Assembly (NCBI GenBank): GCA_009692115.1
Contig: SHZU01000006.1
Location: forward strand, 1 to 64,000
Direction: 5' to 3'
From: Gemmatimonadota bacterium
GTDB lineage: Bacteria; Gemmatimonadota; Gemmatimonadetes; Gemmatimonadales; GWC2-71-9
DNA: 64,000 nucleotides
Shown here: positions 4,892 through 18,647 of the stretch, in pieces
How the letters are laid out: every line of letters starts with the position of its first letter
How positions within the stretch are numbered: the first letter of the stretch is position 1
Made by a program: the position numbers and the translations under genes
The notes under the pieces: generated by a model
The model's input: the letters and a program-made list of their open reading frames with translations, nothing else
What the model was told of the DNA's origin: nothing
Database searches by the model: none

Positions 4892-6502
4892 ATGAACCTC
4901 CGCGTTTTGATGCTAATGCCCGGCCTGGTCGTTCTCCTGACCGGAATGGCGTCGGGGCAGGCCGCTCCGGTCCCGATCCGAGCGGACCTCCTGCTGCTCG
5001 GGGGTCGGCTGCTGGACGGGGCCGGCGGCGACTGGGTCTCCGCCGACATTGGGATCACGGGAGACAAAATCAGTTTCGTCGGACATGCCGAGAGCGCCCG
5101 CATTCGGGCCCGGGACACCGTGTTGGTGAAGGAGCTCTTAGTCACGCCCGGGCTCTGGGATGTCCACTCCCACGAGGAGGCCGGCCGCGAGCCCGGGCGG
5201 TGGGGGCGTCCCTTCGTGACGCAAGGAGTCACGACCGTTATCCTCGGCATTGACGGTTTCGGCGACAACGACATTGCGGCCACGTTCGCGCGCTATCGGA
5301 AGCAGGGCATCACCCTCAACGCCGCGCGGTTCGTGGGGCACGGCCCCGCGCGCACCATGGTGATGGGGAACGACTTCGCCCGCCCCGCCGCGCCGGCGGA
5401 GGTCGACCTCATGAAGGCCTACATTCGCAAAGGCATGGACGAAGGGGCCTTGGGCTTCTCGACGGGGCTCGCCTACAACCCAGGCTACTACTCCTCGACC
5501 GACGAAGTCATCGCGCTCAACCGGGTGGCGGCGGAGTACGGCGGGGTCTACGATACCCACGACCGCGACATGGGCGTGTCCTATAAAGGAGTTGGTTTCC
5601 TCAATTCGGTCACCGAGGCCATCCAAATCGCGGAAGAAGGCGGGACGCCGCTAGTGTTCAGCCACTTCAACTCGCTCGGACTGAAGGCGCATCCCGACAT
5701 GCCGGAGGCCATCCGCCGGATCGAGGCGGCCCGAGGGCGGGGGGTCAACATCATGGGGGCGCAGATCGTCTACACCGCCTCCGAGTCGAGCGTCGACGGC
5801 CACCTGATGCCGCGGTGGGCGCCGGCCGGGGGCCCGGACTCGTTGCTGGCTCGGTTGAAGGATCCGGTTTCCTGGGCCAGGATGGAACCCGAGATCGCCG
5901 AAATCCTGGCCAACCGGGGTGGGCCGACCAAGATCCTCATCACCGAAGGCCCCAAGGAATTCACCAAGCGCTCGCTTAGCGACATCGCATCCAGGTGGGG
6001 GGTGACACCGACCGAGGCGATTCGCCGTCTCCTGATCCAGACCCACGGCACCCGGCTGATGGACATGAACCTCGACATTTACAGCATCGAGAACGTCCGC
6101 ACCCTGGCCCGGAAGGACTGGATCATGACGACGACCGACGGCTACACCCCGGCCAGCGACAGCACCTATACTCACCCGCGGACCTATGGCGGCTTTACCC
6201 GGAAGTTCACCCAGCTCGTGCGGGACGAGAAGCTGATCACCATGCCCTACGCCATCCGCGGGATGACGTCGCTCCCCGCCTCGTTCTACGGAATCCCGAA
6301 CCGCGGCCTCATCAAACCAGGATTCTTCGCCGACATTGCGGTGTTCGATGAGGCGAGGATCCAGGAAAAGGCCACCTACGACGAGCCCCGTCAATACTCG
6401 GAGGGCACGGTCCATGTTCTTGTGAACGGCAAGTTTGCGCTCAAGAACGGAAAAGTCACCGGGGTCCTGGCGGGCCAGCCGATCCGCCGCGGCGGCCGGT
6501 AG
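4892..6502 (+). CDS. Exported amidohydrolase, N-acyl-D-amino-acid deacylase-like
   Basis: A 536-residue protein with a cleavable signal peptide (hydrophobic residues 4-20, cut near ASGQA). The first metal motif is in VTPGLWDVHSHEEAG (HxH), and the N-terminal half and C-terminal small beta domain (LLLGGRLLDGAGG ... LVNGKFALKNGKVTGV) are typical of the D-aminoacylase branch of the amidohydrolases. Family members remove acyl groups from D-amino acids or hydrolyse related amides. GGAG lies 8 bases before ATG. The Asp/Glu racemase-fold gene follows one base after the stop, so both are probably one operon acting on amino-acid derivatives. Confidence 0.85.
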   Translation: MNLRVLMLMPGLVVLLTGMASGQAAPVPIRADLLLLGGRLLDGAGGDWVSADIGITGDKISFVGHAESARIRARDTVLVKELLVTPGLWDVHSHEEAGREPGRWGRPFVTQGVTTVILGIDGFGDNDIAATFARYRKQGITLNAARFVGHGPARTMVMGNDFARPAAPAEVDLMKAYIRKGMDEGALGFSTGLAYNPGYYSSTDEVIALNRVAAEYGGVYDTHDRDMGVSYKGVGFLNSVTEAIQIAEEGGTPLVFSHFNSLGLKAHPDMPEAIRRIEAARGRGVNIMGAQIVYTASESSVDGHLMPRWAPAGGPDSLLARLKDPVSWARMEPEIAEILANRGGPTKILITEGPKEFTKRSLSDIASRWGVTPTEAIRRLLIQTHGTRLMDMNLDIYSIENVRTLARKDWIMTTTDGYTPASDSTYTHPRTYGGFTRKFTQLVRDEKLITMPYAIRGMTSLPASFYGIPNRGLIKPGFFADIAVFDEARIQEKATYDEPRQYSEGTVHVLVNGKFALKNGKVTGVLAGQPIRRGGR

Positions 6503-14295: not shown

Positions 14296-14346
14296 CTGGT
14301 TGGCTTTCGGTTGAGCTTGGGGATGACGAAATCCACCGGCGTGCGG

Positions 14347-14352
14347 TAAACT
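14347..14352 (+). promoter_or_regulatory. Possible -10 box for the serine hydrolase at 14361
   Basis: TAAACT lies 8 bases before the ATG, with ATGACG 18 bases further upstream (14323-14328) as a weak -35. No ribosome site is visible, so a very short or absent leader is possible. This is the weakest of the start-proximal -10 candidates. Confidence 0.3.
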
Positions 14353-14360
14353 AAGCCTTC

Positions 14361-15959
14361 ATGAATGACCTCCGCCAGAACCTTTCGGATGTTCTCGGCT
14401 CGGCCCACCGGATCGCGGCCATCCTGGCCCTCGGCCTTGTCGTGCCTCGGCCCGCCGCCGCTCAAGAACGGCCCACGGAGAACGAGGCCCGCCTCATCGA
14501 GGTCCTCAAGGCCGACATTCCCCAGATCCTTCGATTGACCGGGGCCCCGGGTCTCAATCTGGCCATTGCCCGCCGAGGCCAGGTGATCTGGGAGGAAGGG
14601 TTCGGGTTCGCCGATCTCGAGCGGCGGATCCCGATGACGGCGGCGACCGTGACCCACTCCGGCTCGATGGGCAAGACCTACACCGCGACCGCCGTGATGC
14701 AGCTGGTGGAGCAGGGCATCCTCGAGCTCGACGGGCCGGTCAATCGTTACCTGTCCGGCTGGCAGATCGCCAACCCGCTCGGCGGCCGCGACGTCACCAT
14801 TCGGGATCTGTTGACCCACCGGAGCGGCCTGGCCGGGAACGGAGCCTGGAGCGTGCTCCGCGATCCGAAGCCGCTCGCCGAGCACGTCCCCGAAGCCTAC
14901 GGCAAGAAGCAGAACGATTTCTACGGCGGCCTGCTACCGACCTGGGCGACCCGCGCCGGCGAGAAGTATGACTACTCGAATCTCGGCATCGCGACGTTAG
15001 GGTATCTGGTCCAGGTCACCAACCCCGAGAAGCTCTCGTTTTCCGACTACGTCCAGCGTCACATCATCGATCCCCTGGGAATGACCTCGACTCAATTCCC
15101 TCCGGTGCAGGATTCGGCCCACATCCGGCCCGATATCTGGGCCAAGATGTCCCGGGGCTATGCCGGCCTCGGCTCGATCCGGATTCCGACGCCCGCGATC
15201 TATTTCGAGGATCATCCCGCCGGCACCGTGGTCACCAAACCGAGCGACCACATCCGGATCTTGCTCGCCATGCAACACGACGGGCGGTACAACGGCTACC
15301 AACTCCTCAAGCCTGAGACCGTCAAACTGATGTTGACGCCGTACCCGGGGACGGAGTCGCCCACCGTGGGCCTGGTGTGGGCCCTGGCGGACTGGGACAA
15401 GCCCTATCGCCGGATCTTCGCCCACTCCGGCGCGCACATGTGGGGGTGGACCAACACCTACCTCGCTTTTCCCGGGCTCGATCTCGCCATCGCGGTCTTC
15501 ATGAATCAGTGGGCGCTTCCGAACGACGCTCAGGGCGCCCGCTACCAGGAGGCGGGGTTGGTCACCAACTTCGTCCGATCCTGGGTGGAGCGGGACCTGA
15601 CCGGTACCCTCCGGCCGGTGGCGGCTCATTCATGGGCTTGGAAAGTGTCCTATGTCCAGGGCCTGATGATGGTGGAAAGCGTCAATGGCGTCTTGGGCAT
15701 CAAGGAGCCACTCTCGGCCGCAACGATCGACATGATGGTCCGCGGCGCCGCGCCCCGGATCGAGCGGAACGGGGCTTCGGTCTGGGACCCCGAAGGGTTT
15801 CGGGCCGGCATCGCCGACATGGCCGGCGCCGAGTTGACGCCGACGGGGATCGCCGCGTTCTTCCAGTCCGACCGGCTCCGGGTGCTCCTGGAAGAACTTC
15901 CCCTACTCTACCTCGAGCTCGGCGGTCGAGGCAATCTCCCTGATCCGAAGCCGAGGTGA
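14361..15959 (+). CDS. Exported serine hydrolase, beta-lactamase / class C fold
   Basis: A 532-residue protein with signal peptide (residues about 16-35, ending RPAAAQE) and a class C beta-lactamase-like core: GSMGK with nucleophile Ser, YDYSNLG for the Y-x-N motif and FAHSGAHMWGW for the third motif. About 150 residues follow the core. It is related to the enzyme at 235 but exported. Its last 106 bases form part of a 121-bp repeat whose second copy sits just before the M19 gene, implying that the M19 gene was once the immediate downstream neighbour. Confidence 0.85.
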   Translation: MNDLRQNLSDVLGSAHRIAAILALGLVVPRPAAAQERPTENEARLIEVLKADIPQILRLTGAPGLNLAIARRGQVIWEEGFGFADLERRIPMTAATVTHSGSMGKTYTATAVMQLVEQGILELDGPVNRYLSGWQIANPLGGRDVTIRDLLTHRSGLAGNGAWSVLRDPKPLAEHVPEAYGKKQNDFYGGLLPTWATRAGEKYDYSNLGIATLGYLVQVTNPEKLSFSDYVQRHIIDPLGMTSTQFPPVQDSAHIRPDIWAKMSRGYAGLGSIRIPTPAIYFEDHPAGTVVTKPSDHIRILLAMQHDGRYNGYQLLKPETVKLMLTPYPGTESPTVGLVWALADWDKPYRRIFAHSGAHMWGWTNTYLAFPGLDLAIAVFMNQWALPNDAQGARYQEAGLVTNFVRSWVERDLTGTLRPVAAHSWAWKVSYVQGLMMVESVNGVLGIKEPLSAATIDMMVRGAAPRIERNGASVWDPEGFRAGIADMAGAELTPTGIAAFFQSDRLRVLLEELPLLYLELGGRGNLPDPKPR

Positions 15960-15974
15960 CGTCATGAAACGCCG
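15854..15974 (+). repeat. 121-bp direct repeat, copy 1
   Basis: This stretch covers the 3' end of the serine hydrolase gene and then GTCATGAAACGCCG. It matches 17152-17272 at 119 of 121 positions by my alignment, with differences at two sites only. After the repeat, copy 1 diverges and reads into a short frame ending at 16059, a stub of the M19 start. See copy 2. Confidence 0.95.
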
Positions 15975-16043
15975 AACGGTTAGGGTTCGATCTGGCGTCG
16001 GCCTGCGAATGGGGGCCACCGCTCATCCCGGCCTGATCGATGC

Positions 16044-16049
16044 TAGATC
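16044..16049 (+). promoter_or_regulatory. Possible -10 box 6 nt before the ATG at 16056
   Basis: TAGATC stands exactly 6 bases before the ATG, and no ribosome site is visible. There is no convincing -35 at the expected distance, so support is positional only. Confidence 0.35.
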
Positions 16050-16055
16050 ACCGGA

Positions 16056-17105
16056 ATGACTCGCCACCATCGCTCGCTCGGTAGCGCCCTCCTGTTCGCT
16101 CTTGCCACCTGTGGCGGGGGGAACGGGGGCACCGGACCCACCGACAACCCGTGGGGCGTGACGGCCACGGGACCGGGTGTGCTCTCGGTGTCCCCGATCG
16201 ATACGGCGTCGGTGATCTATACCACTCCGCTCGGCAAACTCGGCCCACCGTGGCACACCCTGCCGACCGATCATGTCTATATCTCGTTCGTCGACCCCTA
16301 CGGCGGCAATCAGCAGCACAATGACTGCCGCAAGCGCCCGATCTACGCCGCCGGGAGTGGCGTCATCACTTTGGTCTTGGCGACCGAGGCGCGCGGCGAC
16401 ACCAAGGTCGACATCCAGATGACGAAGACCTTCCACTACTACTACGATCACGTGCTGCTCTTGCCGGGCATGGTCCCCGGAACCCGGGTCACCGCCGGGC
16501 AGCCGATCGGGACTACCACCGGTTTCTGCCCGTCGTTCGACCTCGGCGCCTACGACCGTGATGTCACGCTTCCCGGCTTGGTGAACCCAGCCCGCTACGG
16601 CCTCGGAACCCGGTACGCGGTCTCGCCGTACAAGTACCTCGCCGAGCCGCTTCGGAGTCTCTACTACTCGCGGTCACGGCTGTTGGAGGGGGCGCCGGTC
16701 GACAAGGACGGCCGGATCGACTTCGGCGTGGCCGGTCGGCTGGTGGGCGACTGGTTCCACTCCTCGCTCCCGGTGGATCATCTAAGCACCGGAAGTATGG
16801 CAGGGTGGGTCAAATCGCTGGCGTTCGTGCCCGACTGGTTCAGCGGCCGGCCCCAAGTGTCGGTGGGCGGCACCATCGCGTCCCCGTTCTTCGGGAACAT
16901 CGGAGCGAATGACCCCCACCCGGCCACCGTGAGCCCCGCGAGCGGCGTGGTCGGTTACCAGATTTCCCGGCCCGGTGCAACCGAGACCTTTGGCTGGTTG
17001 CTGGTCCAAATGACCGCCGCCGACCGGATCAAGGTGGAGTTCTTCCTCGGAGCGACCGCCCGGCCGGGAGCCTTCACCAGCGCCGCGGCTGAGTATCTTC
17101 GGTAG
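16056..17105 (+). CDS. Lipoprotein with degenerate M23/LysM-type peptidase-like fold
   Basis: A 349-residue protein with a lipoprotein-like signal (LLFALATC, then a Gly-rich linker). Residues about 80-150 resemble the M23 peptidase scaffold: VYISFVDPYG, IYAAGSGVITLVL, HYYYDHVLLLPGMVPGTRVTAGQPIG. The GxxxHxxxD and HxH zinc motifs are not clearly present, so it is probably a non-catalytic or strongly divergent member. It lies alone between two copies of a 121-bp repeat, which suggests arrival by insertion or recombination. Function unknown. Confidence 0.6.
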   Translation: MTRHHRSLGSALLFALATCGGGNGGTGPTDNPWGVTATGPGVLSVSPIDTASVIYTTPLGKLGPPWHTLPTDHVYISFVDPYGGNQQHNDCRKRPIYAAGSGVITLVLATEARGDTKVDIQMTKTFHYYYDHVLLLPGMVPGTRVTAGQPIGTTTGFCPSFDLGAYDRDVTLPGLVNPARYGLGTRYAVSPYKYLAEPLRSLYYSRSRLLEGAPVDKDGRIDFGVAGRLVGDWFHSSLPVDHLSTGSMAGWVKSLAFVPDWFSGRPQVSVGGTIASPFFGNIGANDPHPATVSPASGVVGYQISRPGATETFGWLLVQMTAADRIKVEFFLGATARPGAFTSAAAEYLR

Positions 17106-17151
17106 GGGCCACGACGTTCCAGCCCGGTCCGGAGAGCACGGATGTTCTCGA

Positions 17152-17272
17152 CGCGTTCTTCCAGTCCGACCGGCTCCGGGTGCTCCCGGAAGAACTTCCC
17201 CTGCTCTACCTCGAGCTCGGCGGTCGAGGCAATCTCCCTGATCCGAAGCCGAGGTGACGTCATGAAACGCCG
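17152..17272 (+). repeat. 121-bp direct repeat, copy 2
   Basis: Second copy, 1,298 bp downstream of the first. It carries a detached 3' end of the serine hydrolase gene and runs into the true start of the M19 gene at 17262. The 1,298-bp unit between equivalent points holds just the lipoprotein gene at 16056. The simplest reading is a single-crossover type integration or tandem duplication that split a two-gene operon. Confidence 0.95.
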
Positions 17273-18338
17273 TGATCTGCTCCAAGGCGCGTTGGCGGCG
17301 GGAACCCTCCCGATGCTGCCGTTCGGTTCGGCTCCGGCACGGGCCGCATCCCAAGATCAACCAATCGTGGTCGAAGGGCTCTTCGCGGGCACCATCCGGC
17401 TTTCGCATCTCCGCGGAATGCAACAGGGCGGTGTCCATTGTGGCGTGGCCGGCGGGCCGTCGGACATGGCGTCGTTTGCCGCACTGCTCGGGTTCTTCGA
17501 CCGGTACAAGGACGAGGTCGTCCTGGCCAAGTCGGTGGCGGATATTCGCGAGGCCCGGCGGGCCGGCAAGATCTCCAACGTGTTCTGCTGGCAGGCCGCC
17601 GACGCTTTGGGGCAACAGTTCAATTCGCCGCTCGGCACTTCGGCGACCGCCCTTCGGGCGTTCCACGAAGTGGGTCTCCGGATCGTGGGCCTCTGCTACA
17701 ACACCGTGAACGCATTCGGCGGCGGCTGTCTCGAACCCACGGTTGGGCTGACCCGGGCCGGCCATCGTCTCGTCGAAGAGATCCATCGCCTCAAGATCGT
17801 GCTCGATGTCGGGGGCCACACCGGCGAGCAAACCTCGCTCGACGCGATCGCGGTCTCCCGGGGTGTTCCGGTGATTTGCAGCCACACCAACGTCGCGTCG
17901 ATCGCCAACAACAACCGCTGCATCAGCGACCGGGTCATCGACGCGATCGCGGCCACCGGCGGGGTGATCGGGATCACGGCGGTCAACGATTTCCACGTCC
18001 GCGGTCGAGGCAACACCGGCCGGGTGCCGCACGTCGGGATCGATGCCCACATCGATCAGTACGAGTACATCCGGAAGCGCGTCGGGATCGATCACGTCGG
18101 GATGGGCACCGACTTCGTCGATGGGATGCCGATTCCCTACGACGGCGGGGTCAACCGGGACATCATCCCGCTGGACATGATCGACGAGCCGTGGAAGTTC
18201 ATCGACGGATTTGGCAGCATCGGGGAACTGCCGAATCTGATTGCCGGCTTCAAGCGGCGTGGCTGGTCCGACGCCGACCTCGCGAAAGCGATGGGCGGCA
18301 ACTGGCTTCGGGTCTACCGCCAAGTATGGGGTGGCTGA
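17262..18338 (+). CDS. Exported M19 dipeptidase homologue lacking the HxD motif
   Basis: A 358-residue protein of the membrane dipeptidase (M19) family. The signal begins MKRRDLLQGALAAG, a twin-arginine-like type. Conserved family parts are ICSHTNVASI, NNRCISDRVI and VGMGTDFVDG. The N-terminal HxD zinc pair is absent (VVEGLFAGTIRL) and the usual D-L-S-H is DVGGH. It may have a changed metal site or be inactive. ATG at 17262 is inside the 121-bp repeat; GAGGTGA lies 7 bases ahead. Renal-type relatives hydrolyse dipeptides, including ones with a D-residue. Confidence 0.75.
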   Translation: MKRRDLLQGALAAGTLPMLPFGSAPARAASQDQPIVVEGLFAGTIRLSHLRGMQQGGVHCGVAGGPSDMASFAALLGFFDRYKDEVVLAKSVADIREARRAGKISNVFCWQAADALGQQFNSPLGTSATALRAFHEVGLRIVGLCYNTVNAFGGGCLEPTVGLTRAGHRLVEEIHRLKIVLDVGGHTGEQTSLDAIAVSRGVPVICSHTNVASIANNNRCISDRVIDAIAATGGVIGITAVNDFHVRGRGNTGRVPHVGIDAHIDQYEYIRKRVGIDHVGMGTDFVDGMPIPYDGGVNRDIIPLDMIDEPWKFIDGFGSIGELPNLIAGFKRRGWSDADLAKAMGGNWLRVYRQVWGG

Positions 18339-18647
18339 GCGTCGTCAGTGAGTTCCCGCTGAGGCCCGTTCCGGGACCGCCCGGTCGTGCCGGAATCGGT
18401 CAAGGGCAAACGGCGCGATCAACGGTGGCACCCGGCCCGTCGCGAGGAGTTCGGCCATCGGGGTGGCCTGTCCGTCACCGAGGTGGACCCCGAAGGTGAA
18501 GCAGGCGCTCGTGGCCGGCTGCCTTGCGGTGGCGGAACGGGTGTCGCGGCTGCTCGGTCACCGGTAACCCACCGTCGCTGACTTGGTACCGCGGATCGGC
18601 AGGGGCGTTACCCTTGAGGGTGGGAGCGTTCTTCAAGGGAGGTGCCC
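18339..18647. other. Intergenic stretch with unassigned gene debris
   Basis: About 310 bases with no convincing gene. One frame ending with TAA at 18565-18567 reads KQALVAGCLAVAERVSRLLG, which looks like a protein C-terminus but has no start and no family I can name. The promoter of the downstream MBL gene must lie here. Confidence 0.4.

Follow-up and report, generated by a model that had tools for sequence, protein, structure and literature searches.

A lipoprotein gene set between two copies of a hydrolase–M19 gene junction in a Gemmatimonadota genome

In the genome of a Gemmatimonadota bacterium (G000), a 1,173-bp segment carrying one complete lipoprotein gene lies between a serine hydrolase gene and an M19 membrane-dipeptidase gene, and the junction of these two genes, 121–125 bp in length, is found on both sides of the segment. 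We think it about an even bet (a probability near 0.5) that this arrangement arose through a one-off, additive illegitimate insertion which copied its target junction. The locus offers a readable case of a gene entering a compact operon while the adjacent genes stay unbroken: with the stop codon, ribosome site and start codon copied on both sides, both older genes kept working.

The duplicated junction and the segment it brackets

Coordinates refer to the window, the whole 64,000-nucleotide stretch of DNA that was analysed, unless a contig is named. Two direct copies, at 15854-15974 and 17152-17272, are identical at 119 of 121 bases, the match that a sequence-only reading of this DNA had reported on the same coordinates. 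With four extra bases on the left (15850-15974 and 17148-17272) the count becomes 122 of 125, the extension amounting to three matching bases past a mismatch at 15853; the remaining mismatches are at 15889 and 15905 (copy-1 numbering), and the start-to-start spacing of the copies is 1,298 bp. Since the base of copy 1 at 15853 is the one common to relatives, 15854 may be the true left edge of the duplication. When the repeat was searched against the whole 3.12-Mb assembly, only two places appeared among the matches listed, with the second copy at E 2.3e-55. No other direct or inverted repeat of at least 45 bp was detected in the window (exact seeds of 14). In a self-comparison of 25 stretches covering 442,966 distinct bases of G000 (14%, window included; limits of 40 bp, 85% identity and E 1e-6), all other matches fell in one stretch, L104, where an inverted match (48 bp, 87.5%) and a direct one (47 bp, 85%) lie ~5 kb apart. 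The repeat is real and is unusual for this genome.

Copy 1 (15850..15974, plus strand) consists of the final 110 bases of the hydrolase gene including its TGA (15850-15959), followed by CGTC and ATGAAACGCCG, the first 11 bases of the M19 gene. The motif GAGGTGA, just 5' of the M19 ATG and partly within the hydrolase stop codon, is by eye the likely ribosome site. Copy 2 (17148..17272, plus strand) holds a displaced stub of the hydrolase 3' end together with the ribosome site and start of the working M19 gene. That each copy spans the end of the hydrolase gene, its TGA and the first M19 codons had been noticed before and is borne out here; the homologue in G001 begins alike, in support of the M19 start at 17262. 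The hydrolase gene itself (14361..15959, plus strand, 532 aa; beta-lactamase/PF00144 family, by Pfam match and orthologues) is intact, with its last 110 bases in copy 1, as is the M19 gene (17262..18338, plus strand, 358 aa from the copy-2 ATG; by profile match and homologues). Both are whole because the copied stretch includes the stop codon of the hydrolase gene as well as the ribosome site and start codon of M19, and their staying whole is what let an insertion persist at such a tight junction. The measured duplication, 121–125 bp, is not the short target-site duplication of a transposon or insertion sequence, and agrees with the earlier argument that 121 bp is too long for an insertion-sequence target site.

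The insert proper, as delimited by the repeat boundaries, occupies 15975..17147 (plus strand) and contains one likely gene, with 81 bp before it and 42 bp after it. This open reading frame (16056..17105, plus strand, 349 aa) has a lipoprotein-type signal peptide and a lipobox-like LATC-GGG, both judged by eye. Its match to the Pfam M23 family (PF01551) is weak, at 22.2 bits against a curated cut-off of 28.7, and its relative in G093 scores 24.3 bits. HxH is the catalytic motif of M23 peptidases, and it is not apparent in four aligned members of the lipoprotein family. An AlphaFold model built with 4 sequences had a mean pLDDT of 37.5, too poor to use. The sequence-only reading had described the unit as carrying an M23-like lipoprotein gene and nothing else, with no transposase or integrase; the single lipoprotein gene and the lack of both enzymes stand, and the M23 assignment holds only weakly. 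Where the copied M19 start is fused to the insert, a possible leader ORF of 31 codons arises (15964..16059, plus strand), whose TGA overlaps the ATG of the lipoprotein gene (ATGA), an overlap that may couple translation to the lipoprotein gene. Such an ORF also arises in 40% of shuffled flanks when the frame and the ATGA are kept constant, so that we treat the leader as a possible feature only.

The second copy might in principle be an artefact of assembly or binning, derived from a misjoin or from variants among strains. The assembly is a 23-contig draft, and two to three differences per 121–125 bases are of the kind seen between strains; however, the ends of the insert share at most a few bases with the repeat, leaving an assembler little overlap from which to invent the joins, and the neighbouring genes and the lipoprotein gene are intact in a region of even base composition. 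We therefore consider an artefact very improbable.

Gene order and base polarity in congeneric genomes

The five congeners of G000 (G001 to G005) were compared at this locus. Hydrolase orthologues with 70–71% identity are present in G001, G002 and G005, with only distant matches in G003 and G004, and the same three genomes have M19 orthologues (76–81%), none being found in G003 or G004 at E 1e-60. The sequence-only reading had been staked on the arrangement not being shared by all relatives, and it is not: the insert is absent behind the hydrolase in all three congeners that have this gene, and the other two of the five have no hydrolase orthologue. In G001 the gene order is hydrolase, an S15/PepX-family gene, M19. 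The G005 hydrolase has the same S15 gene behind it, up to where the contig ends, and the M19 match opens another contig at its base 1; as far as these contigs reach, the order agrees with that of G001. A different gene follows the hydrolase in G002, where M19 matches are on other contigs and no hydrolase match was found in the ~4 kb upstream of M19. As a separate observation, serine hydrolases of the beta-lactamase family are strongly expanded throughout the genus, with at least 24 matches in all six genomes versus 1–10 in many sister-genus genomes; a few sister-genus genomes, e.g. G006 and G025, also reach at least 24.

Because the fused hydrolase–M19 junction is present in both copies of the repeat, the two genes must have been adjacent in the ancestor, head to tail and 4 bp apart, and any S15 gene was gone before the duplication. 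The earlier proposal of an original hydrolase–M19 operon thus holds as to ancestral adjacency; the contiguous pair lacking the insert was itself seen in none of the genomes compared (one genome per species), and G001 has the S15 gene in between. A single event swapping the S15 gene for the lipoprotein gene was set aside, as the fused junction is already in both copies. The S15 gene of G001 finds its best match in G000 at 43% identity, compared with 85% (partial) in G005, 76% in G004 and 65% in G006. An S15 orthologue seems to be missing in G000, and the direct hydrolase–M19 junction may be a derived state that arose when an S15/PepX-type gene was lost; alternatively, G001 and G005 acquired the S15 gene. 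Loss as opposed to gain elsewhere is not established, because G002 (best match 46%) and G003 (42%) likewise show no evident orthologue.

The two differences inside the repeat bear on which copy is older. Position 15889 is T (Leu) in the coding copy and C (Pro) in the stub, C being common to G001, G002 and G005 (3/3 congeners). In an alignment made by eye, the corresponding residue is Pro in the stub, G002, G005, G052 and G006, and Ser in G001; Leu occurs also in a distant paralogue in G005. The working hydrolase thus has Leu at a position where, in the same alignment, the stub and four of six homologues have Pro. At 15905 the stub has G, the base of G001 and G002 (2/3 congeners), and G005 has C. 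Inside the repeat, the stub appears to keep the older state, and both changes in the working hydrolase (copy 1) look derived. Such a base polarity is equally compatible with two parental alleles and with mutations that arose in the course of the event or later. The copies are 98% alike, so that the duplication is recent relative to the divergence of the genus; over an rpoB stretch, G000 has 83–84% nucleotide identity to G005 and G001.

Two parental alleles are what a Campbell-type single crossover would supply. A small circle carrying the junction and the lipoprotein gene, looped out for example in another strain, would recombine with the chromosome within shared sequence, doubling the junction and producing exactly the observed anatomy, and the two interior differences would be the donor and recipient alleles. 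There is an analogue in the part of a published account that deals with conjugation in E. coli (PMC3240628): among 60 Lac-minus clones described there, most had a partial lacZ duplication and not the expected deletion, and at least three were ascribed to single crossing-over; the duplications there flank foreign DNA. It counts against our preferred reading, illegitimate insertion, that the interior differences appear to fit an inter-strain single crossover about as well. However, the circle must already hold both joins, in which case the crossover would spread the structure and leave its origin unexplained, and no relative of the lipoprotein gene was found in the plasmids, phages or viral contigs searched. 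On balance we hold a single crossover, the chief competitor of our preferred reading, to be possible but rather unlikely.

Relatives of the lipoprotein gene and the case for a mobile element

The lipoprotein family is sporadic: of 395 sampled genomes of the phylum, 17 have a member, G000 included (E 1e-20). The closest full copy found, 79% identical at the amino acid level, is in G093, a member of a different genus of the same family, and the DNA similarity between the two genes stops at the stop codon. As RpoB of the same two genomes is only 82% identical (over a 523-residue segment), 79% is high for a lipoprotein. The two lipoprotein genes differ with dS 1.09 and dN/dS 0.14, the latter showing that the gene has been under selection; for comparison, dS of the hydrolase within the genus is 1.11 and 1.15, and that of M19 against G002 is 0.97. 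Horizontal transfer of the lipoprotein gene is suggested by these sequence comparisons, although its dS is near the within-genus values of the hydrolase. In the congeners, a paralogue of 44% identity is present elsewhere in G001 and G005, G004 has a partial match of 42%, and no match was detected in G002 or G003 at E 0.001.

G000 contains a second, truncated copy of the lipoprotein gene (~171 codons matched) on contig C1 at 418801-419372 (5853-6373 in stretch L039, on the minus strand), directly behind a DNA-alkylation-repair gene that is itself cut off after about 70–85 residues. Its identity to the insert is 94–100% over 16260-16509, 72–84% before this and 90% just after, a pattern that looks like the result of a gene-conversion patch. 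As it comes without the flanks of the insert, the C1 copy is not the donor. The flanks gave no match at E <0.03 among the matches listed for the six genus genomes, own included, and hence no surviving donor site was found. A tandem array as the source of the insert, for which likeness between its upstream and downstream flanks was scored, was not accepted, the local score being reached in 26 of 500 shuffles. In a search for an ancestral lipoprotein locus, the gene neighbourhoods of 14 relatives, that of the C1 copy and the window were also compared among themselves; the window's own lipoprotein gene, overlapped by a longer ORF on the opposite strand, was omitted from this comparison, and the family was traced separately. 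Shared neighbours occurred mainly in pairs from the same contig or from close relatives (G193/L064, G380/L065 and G001/G005), and the others were weak 26–43% matches between large families.

A mobile element was rejected as the best explanation: no recombinase, terminal inverted repeat, tRNA or phage or plasmid link was found. At the ends of the insert there is no terminal inverted repeat of at least 10 bp (7-base seeds, which seedless imperfect ends would escape), and none of the 20 inverted pairs of at least 10 bp inside 15960-17160 has arms at both ends. No tRNA was found in the 64-kb window, and a search of 14300-18400 against Rfam gave nothing at E ≤0.1. The unit has neither the transposase expected of a transposon or insertion sequence nor the site-specific recombinase expected of an att-type element. 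A genome-wide search with PF00589 returned five matches of the phage-integrase family, on contigs C1, C3, C9, C12 and C15, and none in the insert or on contig C6.

These five matches leave room for a non-autonomous integrative element that used the hydrolase 3' end as an att site in trans, with the repeat as attL and attR. Its layout would be like that of islands which restore the 3' end of their target gene, and the genes after the hydrolase do differ between G001/G005 and G002. However, besides the lack of an integrase in the insert and on its contig, the size is only 1.2 kb, and no second hydrolase 3' stub was found near the orthologues of G001, G002 and G005 (stretches of 6.6–10 kb). We regard such an element as highly improbable. 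We give still less credence to a bolder version in which the lipoprotein family would be a nomadic single-gene cargo, spreading as a minimal unit that is mobilised in trans and attaches at the hydrolase 3' end, and the C1 copy a second, decayed landing.

A possible route of insertion and its known counterparts

The insertion that we favour would have taken place in steps. The hydrolase and M19 genes would first have become head-to-tail neighbours 4 bp apart, perhaps through loss of an S15/PepX-type gene, a possible earlier step. A piece of 1,173 bp, bearing a single complete lipoprotein gene, would then have been added at the junction, 121–125 bp of the target being copied on both sides; the anatomy of this addition is observed, while its polarity we infer. 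As to mechanism, repair of a broken or stalled replication fork may have copied or captured the piece and resumed synthesis 121–125 bp upstream of the point of departure. The inserted DNA was probably external, or came from a locus since lost. The repeat should permit precise RecA-dependent loss of the insert, and recombination between the copies would make the present arrangement a reversible state.

End joining is another way in which a piece of DNA could be captured. Ku was not detected in G000, where a gap in the draft is possible, and is present in 5/5 congeners and in 82 of 101 genomes of the family. This is mildly an argument against end joining specifically, and capture by Ku-type end joining is the less likely for it. 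Among the six genomes of the genus, that of G000 is the smallest, at 3.1 Mb versus 3.9–5.4 Mb.

A larger tandem duplication of hydrolase and M19 could also have come first, its inner part (the rest of M19 copy 1 and the front of hydrolase copy 2) being later replaced by the lipoprotein segment. The order of pieces would be right, namely hydrolase end, M19 start, insert, hydrolase end, M19, and the portion of PMC3784515 concerned with transformation describes unequal exchange that yields tandem duplications, there of about 100–900 kb. This route is improbable in our judgement: it needs two events and two truncations, and the edges of the repeat are sharp on both sides with no further remnant found. 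The sequence-only reading had favoured a single crossover or a tandem duplication; tandem duplication by itself could not supply a gene unrelated to the locus. The DNA may have been joined either by repair with template switching or by a single crossover of a circle.

Several known systems resemble the locus in part. Single-crossover insertion-duplication likewise leaves a foreign segment between direct copies of the target, with intact neighbours and an insert that can loop out; in contrast, no circle or vector is known here, and ~121 bp of homology is short. Genomic islands flanked by attL and attR keep the 3' end of their target gene and leave a displaced stub at the far end, with a long direct repeat. 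The present locus shares all of these traits, with the hydrolase 3' end kept and its stub at the far end, and differs in having one gene, no integrase, and no stub near the congener orthologues. Microhomology-mediated template switching produces a templated insert together with a short duplication where synthesis left and resumed. The locus has such an insert plus short duplication, although a template for the insert was not found here.

Homology-facilitated illegitimate recombination has been described in S. pneumoniae, A. baylyi and P. stutzeri (PMC3240628, in the part treating this process). There, too, ~1 kb of foreign DNA is joined at one illegitimate end; the usual result in that account is a deletion of similar size, whereas here there is a duplication, and in place of a loss of target DNA at the illegitimate end we find the hydrolase and M19 genes complete. 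Set beside these systems, the locus is an ordinary, well-preserved insertion scar, and no new mechanism is indicated.
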